From positions 58,088 through 122,087 of IMG/VR virus record IMGVR_UViG_3300046820_004106: DNA of 64,000 nucleotides; one strand, 5' to 3'. This DNA comes from a virus. Under the pieces are notes generated by a model that worked only from the letters and a program-made list of their open reading frames with translations, was not told the origin of the DNA and did no database searches. The position numbers were made by a program, and so were the translations under genes. Positions 19,475-32,562 of the stretch are shown here, piece after piece. The stretch's first letter is position 1. The number at the start of each line of letters is the position of its first letter.

Positions 19475-20371
19475 TTAGTTTTTCTCAAAAATAAATTCTA
19501 GTAAAGGCATATCAAGACCAGATTGTACAATTCTTTTATGATTATATCCATATTTAGCTAAATGCTTAATACAAATATCATCACAAAATTTACCATCAAC
19601 GATGTGAGTTTCTACGATAATTTTTGGATTGAACTTTGAAAAAAAATCATCATCTTCAAATATGCAAGATTCAGCTCCCTCAATGTCACACTTAATAAAA
19701 TCAACTTTTTGCAAATTGTATTTTTTGCAAATATCATTCAGTGTATAACAGTCTACAGTTTTAATTCTACCTCTTTGTCCAACAATTGAAACTGCTGAAG
19801 AACCCATACTTTCCTCAGTTGAAAACTCCAAATCTCCACTATAATTCCAAACAGCGGCATTCAAACATTCAATATTTGCATTTTCTTTAAGTTTATTTAC
19901 ATTTTTCAACAAACAAGAAAAATTCAATTCATCAGCTTCTACAGCGATTACTTTTCCATTATTTCCAACTTTTTGTGCAAATAATATTGAAGTTAATCCA
20001 GAATATGCCCCCAAATCTAATACTACATCTCCACTGTCTAAATTTGCATAATCTAAATATTGAGAAGCTGTTTCATAAGTCTCAGCTAAACTTGGGCAAT
20101 ACAGATCAAATAAATCAAAACCTATTACTTTGTGTTCTTTTGGATAGGAAAAATCTACAACAAAATTTCCATCAATTAGTTCACTCTCTACAGCGTCAAA
20201 ATGAATTTCAAAAAATCTCATTAAAGTTTTTATATAAATTTTATGAGAAAAAGAAATTTTTATAATTTTATTATTTTTTTGAATATAGTAGAAATTTTCA
20301 TCATTATATAATTTAATTTTATTTTCTAAAATCAAATCATCTATAGTCTTTACAACTGGCTGAATATTCAT
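19475..20371 (-). CDS. FkbM-family methyltransferase
   Basis: The protein has a class I SAM-binding core: VLDLGAYSGLTSILFA (motif I), IAVEADELNFSCL, IECLNAAVW and the FkbM signature VDFIKCDIEGAESCIF, ending with PKIIVETHI. These enzymes O-methylate sugars or related small molecules. I chose the ATG at 20371 because an AAGGA ribosome site lies about 11 bases ahead; a longer reading from a TTG at 20431 overlaps the upstream gene and adds 20 residues. It sits between the RmlB-like and NeuB-like genes and probably caps a sugar of the glycan made by this cluster. Confidence 0.86.
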   Translation of the reverse strand: MNIQPVVKTIDDLILENKIKLYNDENFYYIQKNNKIIKISFSHKIYIKTLMRFFEIHFDAVESELIDGNFVVDFSYPKEHKVIGFDLFDLYCPSLAETYETASQYLDYANLDSGDVVLDLGAYSGLTSILFAQKVGNNGKVIAVEADELNFSCLLKNVNKLKENANIECLNAAVWNYSGDLEFSTEESMGSSAVSIVGQRGRIKTVDCYTLNDICKKYNLQKVDFIKCDIEGAESCIFEDDDFFSKFNPKIIVETHIVDGKFCDDICIKHLAKYGYNHKRIVQSGLDMPLLEFIFEKN

Positions 20372-20424
20372 ATTGAGTGTTTTCCTTAAAGAAATAACGA
20401 ATCGCTTAAACAAAAGTTTAATTA

Positions 20425-21378
20425 TTACCAAACAAACTTTTCTTTGTAATACTTGACAATATGCTTAATTTCTTCATCAAAAACACATTCAGGTACCCAT
20501 CCCAATGCTCTAATTTTTGAATCATCAAGGGCATATCTAACATCCTGACCTGGTCTATGAACATCAAAGTTAATATAATCTGAATGTAAATATTCAGCTT
20601 CAGGATAAAACTCTTCAATAATTTTATAAACAGTATCCAAATTAGATTGCTCAAAACCACCAGCAATATTAAAAGTTTCGTTCTTGACACCTGCTTCGAT
20701 TATAGTTAATACTGCTCTGGCTGTATCTTTTGCATGAAGCCAATTTCTAACAGGTGTTCCATTGTTATGTAATGGAATTTTTCTACCTAATGACAAAAAT
20801 TTACAAGCTTTAGGAATTAATTTTTCAACATATTGACCTATACCGTAGTTATTAGTAGGCCTCAATATCACGTAAGGTAATTTATAAGTACGAGACCAAG
20901 CTGTTATTAATTGATCTGCTGCTGCCTTAGTGGCAGAATAAGGATTTGATGGTCTGAGTAAATCAGTTTCATTGTGAGCACCATCAGAAATATCACCATA
21001 AACCTCATCAGTACTAAAGTGAAGAAAAGTAGGCAAAACATAACCTTCTTTTTTATAATCTTTTAAAAGTTCAAGAATGTTATATACGCCAACTACATTA
21101 CTCTGCAAAAAATCTTCACTTTTACGAATCGAATTATCAACATGAGTTTCAGCAGCAATATTTATAAAATAGTCACAATCTACAAGTCTATCAATCTGAC
21201 AAATGTTTTTCTTTTCAAATTTAAATTTTGAATAAGTATTGAAAATTTTTAAGCAATCAGAATCAGATGCATATGTACAATCATCTATTCCATATACATA
21301 CCAACCTTTATCAAGTAATAATTGAGTAACATATCTTCCTATAAAACCTAAACAACCTGTCACATAAACTATTTTCAT
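20425..21378 (-). CDS. dTDP-glucose 4,6-dehydratase-like (RmlB family)
   Basis: This extended SDR has TGCLGFIGRYVTQLL at the N-terminus, then the RmlB-type sites AAETHVDNSI, HFSTDEVYGD (catalytic Thr-Asp-Glu), YSATKAAAD (YxxxK), RPTNNYGIGQYVEKLIP and a closing HRPGQDVRYALD. It should convert a nucleotide-diphosphoglucose to the 4-keto-6-deoxy sugar. The motifs fit dTDP-glucose enzymes better than the CDP-glucose type. I start it at 21378 because AAGGAAAT stands just before the double ATG there; upstream in-frame codons back to 21414 overlap the preceding gene. The product could feed the DdhC-like enzyme encoded just upstream. Confidence 0.9.
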   Translation of the reverse strand: MKIVYVTGCLGFIGRYVTQLLLDKGWYVYGIDDCTYASDSDCLKIFNTYSKFKFEKKNICQIDRLVDCDYFINIAAETHVDNSIRKSEDFLQSNVVGVYNILELLKDYKKEGYVLPTFLHFSTDEVYGDISDGAHNETDLLRPSNPYSATKAAADQLITAWSRTYKLPYVILRPTNNYGIGQYVEKLIPKACKFLSLGRKIPLHNNGTPVRNWLHAKDTARAVLTIIEAGVKNETFNIAGGFEQSNLDTVYKIIEEFYPEAEYLHSDYINFDVHRPGQDVRYALDDSKIRALGWVPECVFDEEIKHIVKYYKEKFVW

Positions 21379-21400
21379 CATATTTCCTTGATATGCCAAT

Positions 21401-22717
21401 TTACTGCTTTTCACTTACAAAATGATCAACAATTTCGCCAATGTAAGCTATTTGTTCTTCCGTTATTACAGGAGAAGTACCTAAGAAGAAAGTATCTGTT
21501 GTAATTTTCTTAGCTATAGGAAAATCATTTAAATCCATATCACCAACTAAATGACTATAAGCAGGTTGCATTAATATATTGCCAGCAAAATATGGTCTTG
21601 TTTGAATTTTTCTTGATTCTAAATATTGACAAAATTCACTACGCTTAAAAGGAGCATTGTTTTTGATTGTGATAGGAAAAGCAAACCAATTAACATCTGA
21701 ATTCTTTTGAGCAATTGGAAGAATAAAATAATCATCGTACTTACTGAAAATATCAAATAATAACTTATAATTTCTTTGACGTAAATTCTTTATCTCTTTA
21801 AGTTTTTCAATTTGAGCTAGTAACATTGATGCCTGTACTTCTATTGGCTTTAAGTTATATCCAATTTCTTCATAAACATATTTATGATCAAATACTTCCC
21901 CTGGCATACTTGGAAGCCATTCAGAAAATCTTTTATTACAAGCACCACACTCTGTAATATTTTGTTTGCCAATACAAAAACAACCACGACCCCAATCACG
22001 AATGGAACGAATGACTTTTTCCAATCCTTCATCATTACAAACAACTAAGCCGCCCTCTCCACAAGTAATATGGTGAGCTGGATAAAAGGAACAAGAAGCC
22101 ATCGTACCAAAACTACCCAAAGGATTACCGTCAAAAGTAGATCCTAAAGCGTCACAACAATCCTCAAGTAAAATTAAACCATAATGATCAATAATATCTA
22201 AAAGCCTGTACATATCAGGAGGATTTCCTAATACATGAGCGAAAGTAATAATTTTAATTTCTGGATCCGCTTGTAATGTAGCCTCAACATCATCTAAATT
22301 TAAATTCAAACCATCTAAACAAATATCTACAAATACTGGCTTAAATCTACATTGAAAAATAGGGTTAATTGTTGTGGGAAAACCAGCAATAGGAGTAAGT
22401 ACCTTAGTTCCTTCAGGCAAATTCAAGTATCTTTTTGATTTTAAAGCAGACATCATCAAAAGATTTGAACTACTACCAGAATTAGTAAGCAAAGCATGGT
22501 TTCTGCCAAATAATGCAGCTAATTTGTTTTCAGCTTTATATGCTTCTGAACCTAAAACTAACCAGCCATCTAATAAAGTAGAGATAGATCTTGTAATTTC
22601 TGCTTGATCAAAATAAGGACCAGCATAATGAACATAATCTTTACCTGGTTTCCATTTTTTCTTCGGCTCAGATTTTATATACTCTTCAATAAGTTTTAAA
22701 AGATCTTCTTTTGACAT
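21401..22717 (-). CDS. DdhC/RfbH-like nucleotide-sugar 3-dehydratase
   Basis: This 438-residue PLP-fold (DegT/DnrJ/EryC1) protein has SFYPAHHITCGEGGLVV, where His replaces the usual PLP-binding Lys. That is the mark of CDP-4-keto-6-deoxyglucose 3-dehydratase (E1), which uses PMP and an iron-sulfur cluster. A cysteine cluster (GRGCFCIGKQ ... ECGACNKRF) in the expected position supports the [2Fe-2S] site. Length matches the family. The product would be a 3-deoxy sugar precursor. The partner reductase (E3) is not in the window. A TATAAT box lies 6 bases before the ATG, predicting a leaderless transcript that probably starts the glycan operon running to 12490. Confidence 0.9.
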   Translation of the reverse strand: MSKEDLLKLIEEYIKSEPKKKWKPGKDYVHYAGPYFDQAEITRSISTLLDGWLVLGSEAYKAENKLAALFGRNHALLTNSGSSSNLLMMSALKSKRYLNLPEGTKVLTPIAGFPTTINPIFQCRFKPVFVDICLDGLNLNLDDVEATLQADPEIKIITFAHVLGNPPDMYRLLDIIDHYGLILLEDCCDALGSTFDGNPLGSFGTMASCSFYPAHHITCGEGGLVVCNDEGLEKVIRSIRDWGRGCFCIGKQNITECGACNKRFSEWLPSMPGEVFDHKYVYEEIGYNLKPIEVQASMLLAQIEKLKEIKNLRQRNYKLLFDIFSKYDDYFILPIAQKNSDVNWFAFPITIKNNAPFKRSEFCQYLESRKIQTRPYFAGNILMQPAYSHLVGDMDLNDFPIAKKITTDTFFLGTSPVITEEQIAYIGEIVDHFVSEKQ

Positions 22718-22723
22718 AAAATA

Positions 22724-22729
22724 ATTATA
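22724..22729 (-). promoter_or_regulatory. -10 box TATAAT of a predicted leaderless promoter
   Basis: The minus strand reads TGGTATAAT, an extended -10, ending 6 bases before the ATG of the DdhC-like gene. Transcription normally starts 6-8 bases after the -10 hexamer, so the mRNA would begin at or next to the start codon. No ribosome site and no -35 match is visible; the -35 region falls in the adjacent terminator. Confidence 0.65.
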
Positions 22730-22735
22730 CCAAAT

Positions 22736-22763
22736 AAAAAAGGAGCTTCACAGCTCCTTTTTT
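22736..22763 (-). terminator. Strong intrinsic terminator after the methyltransferase gene
   Basis: A perfect 12-bp stem (AAAAAAGGAGCT / AGCTCCTTTTTT on the minus strand) with a 4-base loop starts inside the stop codon of the upstream methyltransferase gene. The A and T runs make it work in either direction. It separates that gene from the glycan operon, whose promoter follows directly. Confidence 0.85.
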
Positions 22764-23457
22764 ATTTTATAGGCAAATCATCTTCTTCAAAAATAAGAGG
22801 ATATTTAGCTTCTGTATGACAACCAATTACCTCACCACTATGATAAAACTTGTAATCAAAATTATCTTCCCACATAAAACCTATCTCTGTAAAATGACCC
22901 TGGGGACGATCTATTCTTGAATCACTCAAATGCTCCCAATAACTGCCTTTTTCAAATCCACGAAAAACATTATCCTTCAAAGAATAAATCCACTTATGAT
23001 GAAAAAATCCACGATAACCCTTAACACCATACCATTGCTCAAAACGTAAATACTCTGCATACTTTGAAGGAACAGATACGAAACCTCTCTTAGCAATCTT
23101 CTGCAACATATCGCAAACTAAAGATGGATTACTAATATCCTCCAATGTGTGAGTGCAAATAACATAATCAAACTTGCCATTTTCTGCAACATAATCTAAA
23201 ACTTGATGCCAATTATCCCTCTGAGTTATATCAAAATCAAAGAAAATTCTGTCTGGATGAGATTGAACAAATTCATCCTTACTACCTGGATCAACAAATA
23301 TATCTACAACATGAGTAGTATGCTTACACCAAGAATTAATTCCACCACCAACATCAATTACAGTAAGATTAGGCTTACTTTCTTTAAGTTCTTCAATATA
23401 TAGGTCAACAAAAGTCCTTGGTTTTGTAAAATTTCTTATCGATTTATGAGTTATCAT
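22762..23457 (-). CDS. Class I SAM-dependent methyltransferase-like protein
   Basis: The 231-residue protein has a SAM-binding motif I (LTVIDVGGGINSWCK), an acidic motif II (VVDIFVDPGSK), and a post-core DYVICTHTLEDISNPSLV segment like those of class I methyltransferases in polysaccharide clusters. The second half contains an aromatic-rich GYRGFFHHKWIYSL segment that I cannot assign. Its start is preceded by a TATAAT box at 6 bases and it ends in a strong terminator, so it looks like a single-gene unit between the homing endonuclease and the glycan operon. Substrate unknown; sugar methylation is likely from context. Confidence 0.8.
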   Translation of the reverse strand: MITHKSIRNFTKPRTFVDLYIEELKESKPNLTVIDVGGGINSWCKHTTHVVDIFVDPGSKDEFVQSHPDRIFFDFDITQRDNWHQVLDYVAENGKFDYVICTHTLEDISNPSLVCDMLQKIAKRGFVSVPSKYAEYLRFEQWYGVKGYRGFFHHKWIYSLKDNVFRGFEKGSYWEHLSDSRIDRPQGHFTEIGFMWEDNFDYKFYHSGEVIGCHTEAKYPLIFEEDDLPIK

Positions 23458-23463
23458 AAAAAT

Positions 23464-23469
23464 ATTATA
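23464..23469 (-). promoter_or_regulatory. -10 box TATAAT before the methyltransferase gene
   Basis: GGTATAAT on the minus strand ends 6 bases before the ATG at 23457. The TAA stop of the homing endonuclease gene is embedded in the box (GTA TAA T). A leaderless mRNA is predicted. Confidence 0.62.
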
Positions 23470-24610
23470 CCTTCAACGCTTCTTCAATACACATACCCAA
23501 CTTTAATAACCTAAAACGCAACTTCTGATAATTTATCTCACAACGGATATCCTGAGACCAAGCTAATATACTTTTTTCCTCACCCTGATAAGTAAATAAA
23601 TGAGTCTTTTTCTTTGCATCAGGATTTGCCCATAAAGTTTTACCTTTGTCAGGAATAACAGTCATAGCAATCTCAGGTGGAACATTTCTTTTAAATAATC
23701 TGTCATAAAGAGTGTTTTTATCTACAATACATCTTTCATCTTTTAACCAATCAAGATAGTGCTTGTTTTCTCCCCAAGCTTCAACATATAATTGAGAACG
23801 AACATCTCTATTGTCTTTTTGAGTATGAGTTAAGTTATCTAAAATTGGTTTTATGCTACATCTGTTTACATTGTATTTCAAAGATAATTCATTTGAGTTT
23901 AAACCGTTTTTATAGTCATTTCTAATCTTTTCTGCTAAAACAAAATCAACTTTGACAGTTTGTTCCAAGTAATCTTCTTTGTTGATAAATTCATTGTATA
24001 TATCAAATTTTCTCTTAAGTCTAGTTTCTTCAGTGCTGTCCTTATAGATCCAATCTAAAAATGATTTAGTGTGATTTGAGCCAGTGTATATCAATTCATA
24101 ATATGTGTCATTGTTTTTGATTGAGCCACATTCAGAGCCATAATGTTTTTCAAATTCTGATTTCAATCTTTCAATGAATGGCAACGTACTGACAAGCTTT
24201 ACTACTAAATTTTTATTATTGGGATTATGCGCTTGAGCTAATCCAATATGACCATCACCATCAAAATAACCTCTTACAAAATGAGTTACAAATTCTTCTG
24301 GTATTTGTTCAATCCATTTAAGTTCTTGAGATTTATGTCTTGTAAGCCCAAAATTCATTAAGTCTTGAGTAATCTCTTTGGAAACAACCCACAAGTTGGC
24401 GCTTGGCAAATTTTTTCTCAAATAAATATTTCCATCATAATTTAAAAAATTCTTAAAATTTTCTAAAATATATTTATCTTTAGTATGTAGTTGTATTGAT
24501 AGCATATTTCTATGAGTAGCTAAATGACCATCTGCACATATAAATCCCAAGAAATATGCCATTTCTATTGACCAAGTCTGAAAATACTTTTCGTTTTTAG
24601 TTCTTTTCAT
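23465..24610 (-). CDS. LAGLIDADG homing endonuclease, free-standing
   Basis: The 381-residue protein has two LAGLIDADG helices, AYFLGFICADG (residues 18-28) and FVRGYFDGDG (111-120), each with its catalytic acidic residue. A C-terminal DNA-recognition part follows: a helix-turn-helix-like segment NSNELSLKYNVNRCSIKPIL (about 226-245) and two copies of a short Trp-containing repeat (HYLDWLKDERCIVD ... and SILAWSQDIRCEIN ...) found in homing-endonuclease tails. It lies directly after the capsid gene's terminator. That capsid gene carries an ORF-less group I intron 140 bases upstream of this start, so it may be the mobility enzyme for that intron. Confidence 0.9.
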   Translation of the reverse strand: MKRTKNEKYFQTWSIEMAYFLGFICADGHLATHRNMLSIQLHTKDKYILENFKNFLNYDGNIYLRKNLPSANLWVVSKEITQDLMNFGLTRHKSQELKWIEQIPEEFVTHFVRGYFDGDGHIGLAQAHNPNNKNLVVKLVSTLPFIERLKSEFEKHYGSECGSIKNNDTYYELIYTGSNHTKSFLDWIYKDSTEETRLKRKFDIYNEFINKEDYLEQTVKVDFVLAEKIRNDYKNGLNSNELSLKYNVNRCSIKPILDNLTHTQKDNRDVRSQLYVEAWGENKHYLDWLKDERCIVDKNTLYDRLFKRNVPPEIAMTVIPDKGKTLWANPDAKKKTHLFTYQGEEKSILAWSQDIRCEINYQKLRFRLLKLGMCIEEALKV

Positions 24611-24707: not shown

Positions 24708-24747
24708 TCAACTCACGGAAATGCGACTGACAGCGTAATCGTTGATG
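24708..24747 (-). CDS. Major capsid gene, exon 2 (after group I intron)
   Basis: After removal of the intron at 24748-25035 the capsid reading frame continues here for 40 bases and ends at TGA. The ligated exons read ...GFAL then INDYAVSRISVS. Without splicing the frame instead reads ...GFALIQDYAVSRISIN and stops at 24996. Both products are 284 residues long. A terminator 20 bases downstream and the match of the exon junction to the intron guide sequence support this exon. Confidence 0.82.
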
Positions 24748-25035
24748 CTCCTGTTCGGTTTAGGCTCTTTATCCTAAACTTACCTCCTCATTTCTAAGGA
24801 GTGTCGGACTATATCTTCATCTACTAGAGATGCTTCGCACTCTTGGAAATTTCATCCGTTCTGGATTACTTTTTCTAGTCTCTGAACCTTCTAAATATTC
24901 CTATTTAGCTTGGTTGCTGATTGCCATATCTTTCGACTTAGGTTTCCAGCAATTCACGAAGTTTGTTCTATAATGTCGCCATTATAGAGCCCCCATTAAT
25001 TAATACTGATTCTACTTACAGCGTAATCTTGGATA
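24748..25035 (-). ncRNA. Self-splicing group I intron in the major capsid gene
   Basis: This 288-nt element shows the conserved group I core in order on the minus strand: P at 24940-24954 (AATTGCTGGAAACCT), Q at 24907-24922 (AATCAGCAACCAAGCT), R at 24875-24886 (TTCAGAGACTAG) and S at 24806-24817 (AAGATATAGTCC). A P2 hairpin with a GCGA tetraloop lies at 24968-24987, and P9-type hairpins precede the 3' end. The guide ATGGGGGC (24989-24996) pairs with the ligated exons GCCCU|CAU over all 8 positions, with the required U-G wobble at the 5' splice site and G as the last intron base. It has no internal protein gene, but its first 40 nt encode a mimic of exon 2. Confidence 0.92.
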
Positions 25036-25850
25036 AGGGCGAATCCGAGCTCTTCATAAACAACCCAGCCTAATCTCAATCTCTTTGGATCGTCAGCTGG
25101 AAGAACTGTGATGTCTTGGCGAACTGGCATTGCACCAACAAATTGGGCAGGTGCGAGAACGTAAACACTGTTCTTAGGAACCATTGTGGAAACGTGGATG
25201 TCTGCGGAATAAATATGTCCGTAGAGACCAGTCATAAGAATATCTCTTTGAGTTGCCTCATCGAAGAATTCCTTACCCCAGTTTCTGATATCCTTGTAGC
25301 GTTGTGGGTGAAGAACAACCTTAGCACCGATCAACTCGTGCTCTTCAATGAGGGTCAACGCAAGGTTGACGTTCTCTGGTTGGAGAGTACCGGAAACGGA
25401 AATTGCTTGGTCAGTTGGAACGCCAGCGTTGATAACCTTGAAGACTTCGGTATCTTCTTGTCTTTGGAGGGAGTCCTTAGCACGAACTTGAGCTCTATCG
25501 ACAATGTAGAATCTTCTTTGGCGAATTTCGTTCAAGCGGATTTGTGGGTGTGCAGCTAATTCAACTGTAGGAACGAGAAGCTCTTCAGCCTCAACTTCTG
25601 CAGTAGGAACAGCACCACGCTTAGGAATGACGTATGACTTGACAGCAACGTCTCTCTCGTAGCGAGCAAGAGCGCCTTGTGGGAGCTCATCAACCATCAA
25701 AAGCTTTCGACCGATGGCTTGGTACATGAGGGAGGTCTTGATTGGCTCAACCATTGCTTGTGCAAGAGCTGTGCGTCCCTCTGGAGTCTCGAGAGCCATT
25801 GCAATAATGGATTCTCTTTGCTCATTTGTGTTTCTCTTAATCATTGACAT
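24996..25850 (-). CDS. Major capsid protein, HK97-fold type (exon 1 plus readthrough end)
   Basis: The 284-residue product looks like an HK97-fold major capsid protein: an N-arm helix, a long beta-hairpin region near YVIPKRGAVPTAEVEAEEL, then VYVLAPAQFVGAMPVRQDI and a P-domain end GWVVYEELGFAL. Its place after the portal, protease and core genes agrees. The true exon 1 is 25036-25850; the coordinates given follow the unspliced frame to its TAA. Splicing replaces the last 12 residues with a near-identical set. Start: AAGGAG lies 11 bases before the ATG. Codons use more C and G at third positions than neighbouring glycan genes, as expected for a highly expressed gene. Confidence 0.92.
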   Translation of the reverse strand: MSMIKRNTNEQRESIIAMALETPEGRTALAQAMVEPIKTSLMYQAIGRKLLMVDELPQGALARYERDVAVKSYVIPKRGAVPTAEVEAEELLVPTVELAAHPQIRLNEIRQRRFYIVDRAQVRAKDSLQRQEDTEVFKVINAGVPTDQAISVSGTLQPENVNLALTLIEEHELIGAKVVLHPQRYKDIRNWGKEFFDEATQRDILMTGLYGHIYSADIHVSTMVPKNSVYVLAPAQFVGAMPVRQDITVLPADDPKRLRLGWVVYEELGFALIQDYAVSRISIN

Positions 25851-28410: not shown

Positions 28411-31400
28411 CTAATCTATCCAAGTAATGGATACATCGAGCTTTGATGGATCTTTCTTTGAAGCTTGTACAGTTGTTCTTGAATAATTTCCACACTTGTA
28501 GCAGAAAGTATTATTCTTGACTTTATGTGCTTCTCTGTCACCACAAGATGGACAAATCATACCTACAGGAAGCATTGCTTCTGATGTTCTGTCAAATGAT
28601 GGTAATGCGGTCTTCAAATAAACATCAGAATCAACTGTTGCTGATAACCTAACCATAGTTTTAATTTCAGATGCTACTGGACCCATACCAGGAGCAGCAG
28701 GTGATTGAGCAGGAAGCTCTGCAGGTGCAGTAGCTGCGCCTAAACCAGTTTCAGGTCCAAGACCCATTGGCTCTTCTTCTGGTGAACTCTTGCCCTTATC
28801 TCCCATTGAAACTAATTCAATTTGTTGAAGAATCTTATAGGTTGTTCCACAGCTTTGACAATCAGCATTAGATTCTGAAATATTTACATCATCTGATCCA
28901 CATACAGGACATACTGAGCCCCAAGGCTTTTTCTCACCTGGTTCAGCAATAGCATCCATATCAGCTGATTCGTTCATATCAGCTCCACCAGTTAATGAAG
29001 AAATTCCTAAATCACCACCAGCAGGAGCGCCAGCGCCTAAACCTGGATCAACAGGACCCGCTGCTGGACCAGCAGGAGCAGGTGCACCTGCAGCAGGAGC
29101 ACCCATTCCTGGCATAGCTTGTGCGTATTTTGACAAAATATTGTCTCTTCTAGCCTTTCTAGCTAATCTTGCACCTTCGGTCATAATAACAGGCATTTCT
29201 GCACTTTCTTCAGAGTGCATTTCAGAAGATTCATCGTCAGTTCTGAATGTTTTTGAAGAGGCAGTTGAAACTGTGGCAGTTACATCACCATTTTCAGAAA
29301 CAATCAAGTCTGTGAATGAGAATGTATTTGGATCTACTTGGAATCCGTGACCTTGAAGAACTTCAATTGCTTTCTGCTTGAATGACTCATCAAAATTGCT
29401 ATCACTTGGTTTTACTCCGTCTAAGTCTTCAGCTCTACACATAAATCTAATACAATCAGACTTGCTTTGTGTAACGGTCATACCAGCTGTTCTTTCAGAA
29501 GCAACAACTGCTTTAGCAACTAATTTTTCAGCAACTTCAAATTCTTCACAAAGTCTCTTTGCTGCTTTAGCAATTCTTCTTGTGCTGATACCAAAGTTTG
29601 TTGAGTAGTCTGCAAACCAACCAATTACATTTTCAGAAATATTTTTAGTAGATGCAGTCTTTACACCATAGAATTCTCTTCTTGCTCTGGATCTCAATCT
29701 TCCATCAGTTGCTGTTGCTGTCTTAGCTCTATCAATTGCAGCCATCAATTGCTTTTCAGGCATTGCATCAACAGAATCTACAACTTCATCAGGAGTTGTG
29801 CCGGTTTCTTTAGCAGACATAGCCATAGCAGAAATAGCAGACTTAAGATCATCTTTAGAAATAAGATCAGCGTCAGCATCTACAGCAGACATAAGTGCAG
29901 ACTTAAGTTCTTCATTCTTTGAAGGTGCAGCGTCAACATCCAATCCCTCAACAGGAACATTTGCTTGACCCATAAGAAGTTCGGCAATTCTTGAAACGCC
30001 TTCCTTGGTCATTTCGCCTTCTTCAACTGCAACTGAAAGAGCGTCAGCAAGATCCTTTGCAGTGATTTCAGAATTTACAGCAGCTCCAAGCTCCTTAAGA
30101 ACAGCAGAGACTGAATTTTCTGGCTTAGCGTCTCCACCAAAGAAATCTGCCTTTTCTGCCTTATCAGCTTCCATACCAGCACCAGCAGCTGCAGTACCAA
30201 TCATTTCAGGAAGCATTGGTTCTGATGCTAATGTTTGAGCAACACGAACGATAGTTTTTGGTGTTTCAAGTGAAGAAATTACAGCCTTGCCTAATGCATT
30301 GATAGTAGCTGCCATAATTTCGTGTGCAGATGCAGAACCCTCTGCACGATGGTTAGATAATTGCATCTCTAAAACTTCAGTAGGAACACCGTGTGTGACT
30401 TCATCAACAAGTTCAGTTAAGGATTTACGAACTTCTACATCCTTGATTCTTCTGCCGTAAAGTCCAGCATCTCCAAGAAGAATTTCTCTTACCGCATCCT
30501 GGCTTTCACCTGTTTGCTTTGGTGCTAATTGCTTTTCACGAACTTCATTTACAACGCCAGTGTTTTTTGACTTGACACCTTCGTATAAATTATCATATGA
30601 TTCACCACTTCTGACTTCATCAAGTTGTCTCTCTCTGTCATCAAGTCTTTCTTTGACATCAAGTAAAGCAGTCTTGACAAATTGTGAATAATCCTTGAGC
30701 AATTCAGCAGCAACTCTTGTACCTTGTCCGTTTTCCATCAAGCCAAGTTGATTTTCATTAAGGATAGGTTCCCAAGCAGTTCTTTTTCCATTTGTGTAAC
30801 CTGTGATTGAACCATCAGTAGAAAGAACAACTCTATTACCTGCATTGTCCTCGACTTTAAAATCGATTGTAACTGCAGCAGCAAGTTTTTTTCTTTGCTC
30901 TGATGCAATCTTTGCAAAGTGATCCATTTGATTTCTGCTCCCCGCCACGAAAGGCGTATTTGTTTTTATATTTTTGCTTCTTTCATTAGCAATTCTAATG
31001 ACATTATCAATACTTTTTTGAATTTGAGCACTATTATTTAAATTTTCTTTTAAATTTAAGATACTTTGTGTTAAATTCAAAATTTTATTGGAAGATGAAC
31101 CGTTTTGAGTGCTAGCAAAAACTTCTCTTTTACCATCTCTTGAAGCCCATACCAAATTGTGATTGCTAGAGGCTAATGCAACACCGCCTCCAACTTGCGT
31201 ACCTTGATCTCCGGAATAAGTAAGATCCATAATTTTTCCGACAGATTCAGTTGGTGCGTAATTTGCCAGACCAATATTGGCGTTCATTGGAGAAGCTTGT
31301 GGTGCTTGTCCCTGTTGCATATTTTGTGGCTGATTAATTTGTTGTGGTCTTTGTCCTGACCCAACATCTATACCATCATCAATCATATCTTGCATTGTAG

Positions 31401-32562
31401 ATTGAAGTTCTGCCATTGATTTAGTAACTTTTCCTACGTGTCCCAAATCAACATTATCTTTTCTTGCAAACATATTCATCACTGCAACTTCTAAGAAATT
31501 CAATGATAAATTGATCAAGTCAAGAATATTAAGACCAGATCTAGGATCAATTCCTAATGCTGTTAATACTGCTTGAACTGTAGAATTTTGATTTGCTCCT
31601 GCTCCAGCCAATAAAGGACCACCAACAAGAGTACCTGCTTGTTGCGCCAATCTTACTGCAGTTTTTGCTGTGGAATTCGCTACTCTTAAGCAGTTTTCGT
31701 ATTCTGTTCTAGATGAAGATTCTTGTGGAGATCCTTGTAATGCTAAAACAATATTTGCAGAAATTTCATTAGCTTTTTTCTCTAAATTCATTGCAGCATC
31801 AAGAACATCATCTACATCATAAATTTCTTGAATTTCGCAAGATTCAAAAGCTCCATCACCTACACAGCTAAGTTCAATAAATTTGACACCATAGTTTTTT
31901 TCATAAGCTTTCTTGCCAGTTTCAGGATAAATTTTACCTTTATATCTCTTAAGGTGATCACAATAATCTCTTTCAGTATATGCTTTATTGCCACACACTG
32001 AACAAACACCCCATTCAACACTCGCACCCATCGAAACATCGTGAATTACGCCTGTTCGAATATTTCTTGCAATGTCTGGGTAAGCTTCTTCATCTACAAA
32101 GAAAGTACAATAAACACAATCTTCTTCTTCATCCCATTCAGCGTAAACAACCATTCCTTTGGCTTGTTCAATATCATCATTTTTGTGATTTGTATAAATT
32201 GGAACGCCTTCAAAGGTTTTATAAGATGGGATTTTTTTGCCTTTGATTTCAACTTCTTTAAGTAATTCTTCCTTAGAAAAAAGATCACCATTAGCGTTGA
32301 CGACATCTGCATCAATAGCTCTAGCTCTTACCCATAAAAGTTTTGCACCCTTACGAGCTTGCATTTCTTTCACGATGTCGAAATCTTTGTATTTTTCTAG
32401 GACTTCTTTCGGATCAGCATAGAGAGATTGAAGACCAATCTTAGCTGCTTCTCTCATATTTGATGAAGCGGTCTTAATAATATAATCTCTAGCTATATTT
32501 CGGTCATTTTCGTTGAGGAAACTATTAATTGTAATAGCACCTCCTTTTGCAACCTTGTACAT
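28411..32562 (-). CDS. Prohead maturation protease domain in a 1383-residue head protein
   Basis: Residues about 75-260 look like the caudoviral prohead protease family: LWVRARAIDADVVNANGD, then a strand-loop with PIYTNHKND (candidate catalytic His) and VIHDVSMGASVEW (candidate catalytic Ser), with an inserted CSVCGNKAYTERDYCDHL zinc-like motif common in large phages. The remaining 1100 residues are helical and Ala/Glu-rich, scaffold-like, with two C-terminal zinc ribbons (CPVCGSDD ... CQSCG and CPSCGDRE ... CYKCG). A protease fused to a core-like protein suggests self-processing during head maturation. AAGGAT precedes the ATG. The role of the long C-terminal part is inferred. Confidence 0.8.
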   Translation of the reverse strand: MYKVAKGGAITINSFLNENDRNIARDYIIKTASSNMREAAKIGLQSLYADPKEVLEKYKDFDIVKEMQARKGAKLLWVRARAIDADVVNANGDLFSKEELLKEVEIKGKKIPSYKTFEGVPIYTNHKNDDIEQAKGMVVYAEWDEEEDCVYCTFFVDEEAYPDIARNIRTGVIHDVSMGASVEWGVCSVCGNKAYTERDYCDHLKRYKGKIYPETGKKAYEKNYGVKFIELSCVGDGAFESCEIQEIYDVDDVLDAAMNLEKKANEISANIVLALQGSPQESSSRTEYENCLRVANSTAKTAVRLAQQAGTLVGGPLLAGAGANQNSTVQAVLTALGIDPRSGLNILDLINLSLNFLEVAVMNMFARKDNVDLGHVGKVTKSMAELQSTMQDMIDDGIDVGSGQRPQQINQPQNMQQGQAPQASPMNANIGLANYAPTESVGKIMDLTYSGDQGTQVGGGVALASSNHNLVWASRDGKREVFASTQNGSSSNKILNLTQSILNLKENLNNSAQIQKSIDNVIRIANERSKNIKTNTPFVAGSRNQMDHFAKIASEQRKKLAAAVTIDFKVEDNAGNRVVLSTDGSITGYTNGKRTAWEPILNENQLGLMENGQGTRVAAELLKDYSQFVKTALLDVKERLDDRERQLDEVRSGESYDNLYEGVKSKNTGVVNEVREKQLAPKQTGESQDAVREILLGDAGLYGRRIKDVEVRKSLTELVDEVTHGVPTEVLEMQLSNHRAEGSASAHEIMAATINALGKAVISSLETPKTIVRVAQTLASEPMLPEMIGTAAAGAGMEADKAEKADFFGGDAKPENSVSAVLKELGAAVNSEITAKDLADALSVAVEEGEMTKEGVSRIAELLMGQANVPVEGLDVDAAPSKNEELKSALMSAVDADADLISKDDLKSAISAMAMSAKETGTTPDEVVDSVDAMPEKQLMAAIDRAKTATATDGRLRSRARREFYGVKTASTKNISENVIGWFADYSTNFGISTRRIAKAAKRLCEEFEVAEKLVAKAVVASERTAGMTVTQSKSDCIRFMCRAEDLDGVKPSDSNFDESFKQKAIEVLQGHGFQVDPNTFSFTDLIVSENGDVTATVSTASSKTFRTDDESSEMHSEESAEMPVIMTEGARLARKARRDNILSKYAQAMPGMGAPAAGAPAPAGPAAGPVDPGLGAGAPAGGDLGISSLTGGADMNESADMDAIAEPGEKKPWGSVCPVCGSDDVNISESNADCQSCGTTYKILQQIELVSMGDKGKSSPEEEPMGLGPETGLGAATAPAELPAQSPAAPGMGPVASEIKTMVRLSATVDSDVYLKTALPSFDRTSEAMLPVGMICPSCGDREAHKVKNNTFCYKCGNYSRTTVQASKKDPSKLDVSITWID

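Follow-up and report, generated by a model that had tools for sequence, protein, structure and literature searches.

A predicted group I intron in a phage major capsid gene carries at its 5′ end a diverged copy of the following exon

How does a phage major capsid gene come to possess two ends, one of them inside an intron? The question is raised by a locus in the window, which in the present study denotes the whole analysed stretch of 64 kb, part of a 122,087-base viral record. Exon 1 of the gene (25036-25850, minus strand, 815 nt, ending in ...GCCCT) was recognized by its ORF, by tblastn relatives and by HK97-type fold matches. The protein was assigned to the major head protein family phrog_2522 (E 2.5e-67), and its best named match was Bacillus phage G, with 48% identity. 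The structure model of the capsid protein, based on 56 sequences, had a mean pLDDT of 65.7 and matched encapsulins (E 8.4e-7) and, at E 4.3e-6, HK97; the TM-scores were modest, at about 0.3-0.5. Sequence family and fold together indicated a major capsid protein of the HK97 fold. Exon 1 contributes 272 residues, and its last codon is split, being completed by exon 2 or, in unspliced RNA, by the first base of the intron. Another 12 residues are added either by exon 2 or by a copy of it, giving a total of 284 both ways. The unspliced ORF (24996-25850, minus strand) is complete and ends in ...GFALIQDYAVSRISIN; the frame obtained by removal of 25035-24748 ends in ...GFALINDYAVSRISVS.

The 288-nt insertion (24748-25035, minus strand) was examined with the covariance-model search that the first-pass annotation had proposed. 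It was observed that the Rfam group I intron model RF00028 (Intron_gpI) matched 24784-25012 on the minus strand over its entire length (model positions 1-253 of 253), with a score of 93.7 bits against a gathering score, used as the cut-off, of 50 and an E-value of 8.1e-23. These results agreed with the intron coordinates that had been annotated and supplied the strand that had not been given. No other RF00028 match was found in the 122,087-base record, in which the capsid intron is the sole one. The internal guide AUGGGGGC (24989-24996, minus strand; intron nt 40-47) is complementary to GCCCU, the last bases of exon 1 (P1), and to CAU, with which exon 2 opens (P10), with a single U.G pair, which falls at the splice site, so the annotated eight-position pairing was recovered as well. 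The intron closes with ...GGAG before CAU, and this 3′ end, AACA-N4 with a terminal G, resembled that of L147 and others when compared by eye (loci and introns other than the window's are cited by number). There is no ORF for a homing endonuclease gene (HEG) within the 288 nt. The intron is intact in core and splice-site features, and splicing is predicted on the strength of the core together with the family ending that removal of the intron restores. An assembly artefact was considered and judged unlikely, because the core, the guide and both exons fit one another.

Exon 2 (24708-24747, minus strand) consists of C followed by ATC...TGA and encodes the peptide INDYAVSRISVS. The copy (24996-25034, minus strand), which lies in the P1 loop, encodes IQDYAVSRISIN followed by a stop codon. 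When 25034-24996 was aligned with 24746-24708, 26/39 nt and 9/12 residues were identical, and the stop was common to both (10/13 codons matching in meaning, stop included); the differences amounted to 13/39 nt and to three residues (Q/N, I/V and N/S). When the bases of the copy were shuffled 200,000 times, 26/39 nt or 9/13 codons was never reached, and nowhere else in the whole window, on either strand, did a segment match exon 2 at 24/39 positions or more. Copy and exon 2 were taken as homologous by sequence, with chance excluded. The near-copy, the two frames of 284 residues with three differences and the position of the stop at the guide were all described in the first-pass annotation and were confirmed here, the last A of the TAA being common to the stop and the guide.

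To decide which of the two ends is native, the relatives of the capsid gene were compared. The best 80 of 142 viral loci were included, 79 of them with the capsid 3′ end (L041 breaks off earlier), and phage G and two genome contigs brought the number of native ends to 82. In all 82 relatives compared (best 80 of 142 loci plus 3), the capsid ORF runs through the site without an intron, and a blastn search of the intron against L001-L082 (E 0.01; best 80 of 142 loci included) returned only the window's own locus. None of the 82 intronless relatives (best 80 of 142 loci plus 3) ended like the unspliced frame, an ending that the first-pass annotation had named as evidence against its own reading. 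In the same set of 82 (best 80 of 142 loci plus 3), residue 2 of the exon 2 peptide is Asn without exception, and every residue of exon 2 was seen among the members of the set. The copy carries two residues seen in 0/82, namely Gln in place of this Asn (residue 274) and a C-terminal Asn. As a measure of ordinary variation, 45 of the 54 distinct native 12-mers (best 80 of 142 loci plus 3) contained no unseen residue and 9 contained one. According to blastn, the 3′ flank of exon 2 also occurs in L003, L018, L024 and L023, all intronless; the match to L003 was 84% over 94 nt, exon 2 included, and that to L023 covered 51 nt. The shared flank after the stop and the residue conservation together indicate that exon 2 is the native end and that the 5′ copy is the added piece.

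These comparisons also bear on the reading in which the intron is irrelevant: all capsid would come from the unspliced frame, and exon 2 would be a remnant stranded behind a downstream element. Such a reading would suit the completeness of the unspliced ORF, and cDNA of Tremella fuciformis is reported to identify cox1-i2 and nad3-i1 as downstream sequence and not introns (PMC7315562). It sits badly with a core of 93.7 bits and a guide that still fits both exons, and the invariant Asn and the lack of unseen residues, found in exon 2 and not in the copy, point to stronger constraint on exon 2. We regard it as highly improbable.

The divergence of the copy was then compared with that of exon 2. 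The best native match was L003 for both, at 29/39 nt each (best 80 of 142 loci plus 3). Relative to the native end with the fewest nonsynonymous differences (L003, among 24 distinct ends), the copy showed 5 nonsynonymous and 4 synonymous differences and exon 2 showed 2 and 8. The copy's distance therefore looks like that between phage lineages, and the copy seems coding-like and less constrained than exon 2. The first-pass annotation had taken the synonymous codon differences between copy and exon 2 as a sign of selection on the peptide. This part of its interpretation was not supported, because the copy is as far from native ends as exon 2 is and silent differences of such size are normal between two capsid lineages, so they are no proof of peptide selection; an end that had served another phage's gene until its capture would differ in the same way, and the two residues unseen in the 82 relatives speak against it too. 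What stood was the near-copy, the intron with the splice sites predicted for it, and the full length of both mRNAs' products. A pN/pS of about 0.43 for copy versus exon 2 (Nei-Gojobori-style; 7.5/28.7 versus 4.5/7.3 sites) was likewise rejected as proof of selection, since divergence before capture and selection after it are inseparable in this ratio.

The structure model suggested what the second end may do for the protein. The last two blocks of the model had pLDDT values of 82 and 92 and include the last strand (residues 278-283), for which exon 2 or the copy supplies the codons. A truncated capsid would lose this strand, and rescue of unspliced translation by the copy is therefore plausible. 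It is conceivable that the copy has been kept for that purpose, as a selected safeguard by which the capsid gene, expected to be highly expressed, would give a full-length product spliced or unspliced, perhaps in a regulated ratio. The intact 12-codon frame and stop, the identical protein length, the structural cost of truncation and a pN/pS below 1 would all agree with such selection, yet a copy that had worked as a gene end before capture would show a low pN/pS in any case, and the Gln at the invariant Asn, the unseen C-terminal Asn and the excess of nonsynonymous differences from the nearest native end argue against it. Selective retention of this kind is in our estimate unlikely; tolerance of unspliced RNA as such is plausible.

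The RNA fold was predicted for the precursor. P1 consisted of eight pairs between GCCCUUAU and AUGGGGGC (pair probabilities 0.80-1.00), and the copy occupied its loop; P10 was absent from this predicted fold. The first bases of the intron, UAU, pair with the guide bases that exon 2 CAU needs for P10, so the P1 extension and P10 are mutually exclusive. Such mutual exclusion is usual in group I introns. The 53-nt P1 hairpin, with an inner stem inside the copy, had a folding energy of -13.4 kcal/mol and was unexceptional by itself (z -1.46; 18/200 shuffles folded equally well); the 86-nt piece comprising P1 and P2 was exceptional (z -3.24; 0/200 shuffles as good). From these features one might suppose that the likeness of the intron's 5′ end to exon 2 reflects an RNA or DNA constraint and not coding, acting through guide pairing, the P1 extension or a DNA site. 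The competition of UAU with CAU and the inner stem of the hairpin are in line with this, and PMC11855218 reports that a 5′ end closely similar to the sequence just 3′ of the insertion site has been noted in many group I introns, perhaps since both have to contact the guide, citing a crystal structure paper of 2004. The guide, however, pairs with only the first 3 bases of exon 2 and the similarity extends to the stop, the P1 hairpin alone is ordinary, and a peptide-level scan, judged partly by eye, yielded no convincing long in-frame copy among 284 other viral cores in the matches listed. We consider a purely non-coding constraint very unlikely.

That scan was based on 285 deduplicated viral group I cores among the matches listed, the window included, which were collected by three pattern scans and of which 260 had at least 300 nt on both sides; two of the pattern scans listed at least 120 matches each and the third gave 28 stretches, and any statement on rarity applies to this sample. 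A first scan for copies had covered 131 cores. A score of at least 46, which is the window's score, was reached by 18 of the 285 cores among the matches listed (window included) and by 20 of 850 mismatched pairs. Mismatched pairs thus score alike, and the score alone fails to single out the window. The other high scorers were set aside. For three of them the DNA was inspected: in L220 and L235 the match arises from repeated 3′ portions of tandem introns, whereas in L244 it resembles a paralogue 2.6 kb downstream. Fourteen more were judged from their peptides as core motifs of tandem introns, membrane proteins, shared stretches with stops, or biased composition; some of them we take to be NCW core motifs at tandem introns and photosystem-like membrane proteins. 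Near a group I core, L244 also has an in-frame stop (4244, plus strand) that occupies the same position in each of two similar gene copies and is possibly a recoded stop codon.

The position of the copy's stop was compared with that in other introns. In 150 cores with a host ORF of at least 100 codons, the median distance from the ORF stop to P7 was 122 nt, and in the window it was 109 nt. A stop ahead of the core is the usual arrangement, and the oddity of the window is what precedes that stop. Such stops are viewed in a review as evidence that ribosome stalling aids intron folding (PMC3984707). A dual-coding switch could be imagined along these lines, with ribosomes at the copy's stop sitting on the guide and delaying splicing, so that two capsid isoforms would be made in a ratio set by growth state. 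Strong translation would then favour the Gln-ended capsid and weak translation would favour splicing and the Asn-ended capsid, and an intron in an essential gene would be cost-free. We think this quite unlikely.

Recombination between phages was considered next as the source of the copy. Identity between exon 1 and L002, L010 and L005 was 96-98% in the first 680 nt and dropped to 88-89% in the final 136 nt, a region in which these three are 96-99% identical to one another. Within gene nt 720-792, the window matched L001, L004 and L009 at 47/48 positions in both steps (720-768 and 744-792), compared with 44/48 and 40/48 between L002 and the window. We read gene nt about 744-801 (25050-25107, minus strand) as a recombination tract, nearly identical to L001, L004 and L009 and unlike the otherwise closest relatives. 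For the last 24 nt of exon 1, and for the copy, the best match was not of the L001 type. Capsid genes of this group are mosaic in general: in an equal-length comparison of 35 sequences (best 28 of 35 shown; L203 repeats L024), the identity of L029 to the window was 99% at nt 544-680 but 76% over the final 136 nt. Because of this general mosaicism, the identity switch by itself shows recombination near the intron and not homing as its cause, although it may be a trace of homing. Between L003 (4001-4855), which has an HEG homologue, and L002 (380-1234), identity falls as it does in the window, through 97, 96, 87 and 69% in successive bins towards the end of the capsid gene, which suggests repeated gene-end replacement near the HEG.

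Downstream of exon 2 lies a free-standing LAGLIDADG homing endonuclease gene (23465-24610, minus strand, 381 aa), identified by PF14528 (E 1.2e-8), PF00961 (E 6.1e-6) and the endonuclease family phrog_4645 (E 1.9e-46). LAGLIDADG homologues were found behind the capsid gene in 12/83 distinct loci (best 80 of 142 included; L041 breaks off earlier and L203 repeats L024), among them L001, L004, L009, L003 and L024. The slot behind the capsid gene is variable, being filled by LAGLIDADG homologues or by other ORFs in the window, L001, L002, L003, L018, L024 and L029. A HEG-less intron beside a free-standing HEG is the arrangement of collaborative homing, which is described for phages in PMC2988022 and PMC3984707, and in T4 homing brings with it the co-conversion of exon sequence on either side (PMC2988022). 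In the window's group, unlike those systems, HEG homologues adjoin intronless capsid genes, and the role of the HEG here is putative.

Recombination linked to homing fits the origin of the copy best, an explanation favoured by the exon 1 identity switch, the adjoining LAGLIDADG gene and the fungal parallels described below. A relic of homing or recombination had been offered in the first-pass annotation only as the alternative, and it emerged as the better supported of its two readings. On this basis we hold it somewhat probable that homing-linked recombination joined a foreign capsid end to the intron, where splicing, the order of events and partial function of the unspliced protein are inferred parts of the proposal; for the anatomy of the locus our confidence is greater. 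In the proposed sequence of events, homing-type repair between related phages would have joined the complete capsid 3′ end of one phage ahead of the intron guide, and the guide-bearing part of the intron would have arrived with the other phage's exon 2 and the downstream endonuclease gene. The longer P1 loop would still permit splicing, with P1 forming between GCCCU and the guide and P10 then aligning exon 2. Spliced RNA would give the capsid with the exon 2 peptide, and unspliced RNA, or a ribosome that reads on first, would give a capsid of equal length with the copy's peptide. Failure to splice would then still yield a full-length capsid, and the usual cost of an intron in an essential gene would be relieved. 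It counts against such a join that the copy ends exactly at the guide and preserves protein length, which at random would require luck or later selection.

Searches for a donor and for similar introns covered the viral and genome collections, from which records very near the window may be omitted, so that the negatives concern relatives other than sister strains. Among IMG/VR viral contigs searched on these terms, 0 encoded A-L-I-Q-D-Y-A-V-S-R. Two gapped patterns for other introns at the capsid site gave 0 matches and 1 match in IMG/VR, the latter (L204) without a capsid match; these patterns fix one P4 form and one exon 1 end, and introns of other design could escape them. The pattern scan of genome_contigs gave 20 matches, 2 of them capsid relatives with an ORF through the site in both. 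A second intron-bearing capsid gene was not found by these searches. Four further RF00028 matches in the records of relatives, two of them below the cut-off, were without a copy; some lie apparently at tRNA, where none would be expected. All four are outside the capsid gene: L207 and L210 (in the record of L001, 105190-105386 and 108407-108603), L208 and L209. L209 and L210 are those below the cut-off, and L208, L209 and L210 appeared by eye to lie at tRNA sequence.

Previous studies have reported comparable layouts in fungal mitochondria. Introns of Tremella fuciformis nad4, cox1, nad3, nad5 and cob carry a copy of the downstream exon at the 5′ end (PMC7315562), as do atp6-173 and nad3-282 of Ophiostoma, in which cob-201 has an 18-nt piece (PMC12308204). 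As in the window, a diverged near-copy of the exon that follows is encoded, in frame, at the 5′ end of the intron or predicted intron (in the window, 9/12 residues plus the stop), and gene-end exchange and intron mobility are invoked in these reports. In what they state, two of the fungal introns measure 2.1-2.2 kb, the type is unclear for two of those in Ophiostoma, and in T. fuciformis a real intron was verified by cDNA in only 1/6 cases (PMC7315562). In contrast, the window has a 288-nt phage intron, HEG-less inside and with a complete core, a copy confined to the P1 loop and an HEG behind exon 2. C-terminal duplication with a HEG is described in Glomus atp6, atp9, cox2 and nad3, as well as in atp6 of Allomyces (PMC3630166), and PMC4019555 likewise describes genes in which a HEG lies between two C-termini, one inserted and one native. 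The Glomus and Allomyces genes resemble the window in having a mobile LAGLIDADG element (GIY-YIG in atp9) beside two diverged ends, one native and one inserted, but the inserted end and the element stay in their transcripts, as reported there, and no group I intron removes the extra end.

Among phages, mycobacteriophage LittleE likewise has a group I intron in its major capsid gene, and its splicing was demonstrated (PMC3706429). Unlike the window, the LittleE intron contains its endonuclease, and the excerpts of PMC3706429 on this intron describe no copy of the next exon; a stop 30 bp into it would truncate the capsid (PMC11855218). In the methylase insertion of ShiLan, the first 11 translated residues resemble the 11 residues past the insertion site (PMC11855218), as in the window, but no intron core was detected, and the insertion, in which an HNH endonuclease is concealed, is translated through in frame. 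In the portions of the open-licence literature that were searched, a long copy of the following exon is not described for any phage group I intron; against this stands the general remark in PMC11855218 that resemblance of this sort at group I intron 5′ ends is a frequent observation. Judged by core and splice-site features, the window's insertion is a group I intron, predicted to splice, that would work like the fungal case; the layout is already known from fungal mitochondria and the 288-nt phage form is, at the sequence level, the new variant. The locus would be a small-scale phage example of an arrangement known mainly from fungal mitochondria, in which an exchange of gene ends leaves a gene with two ends, one of them intronic. 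It suggests a route by which an intron may enter an essential gene without first needing good splicing, and it points to swaps of capsid gene ends close to an endonuclease gene in phages whose capsid genes are otherwise 96-98% identical.

Other genes of the window were also noted. An ORF of 1383 aa at 28411-32562 (minus strand) matches the head maturation protease family phrog_18299 at residues 82-242 and has a very long remainder. Downstream of the capsid region, the ORFs at 19475-23457 (minus strand) presumably resemble a sugar-nucleotide epimerase, an aminotransferase and a methyltransferase, and the ORF at 22762-23457 (minus strand) gave a Methyltransf_23 match.
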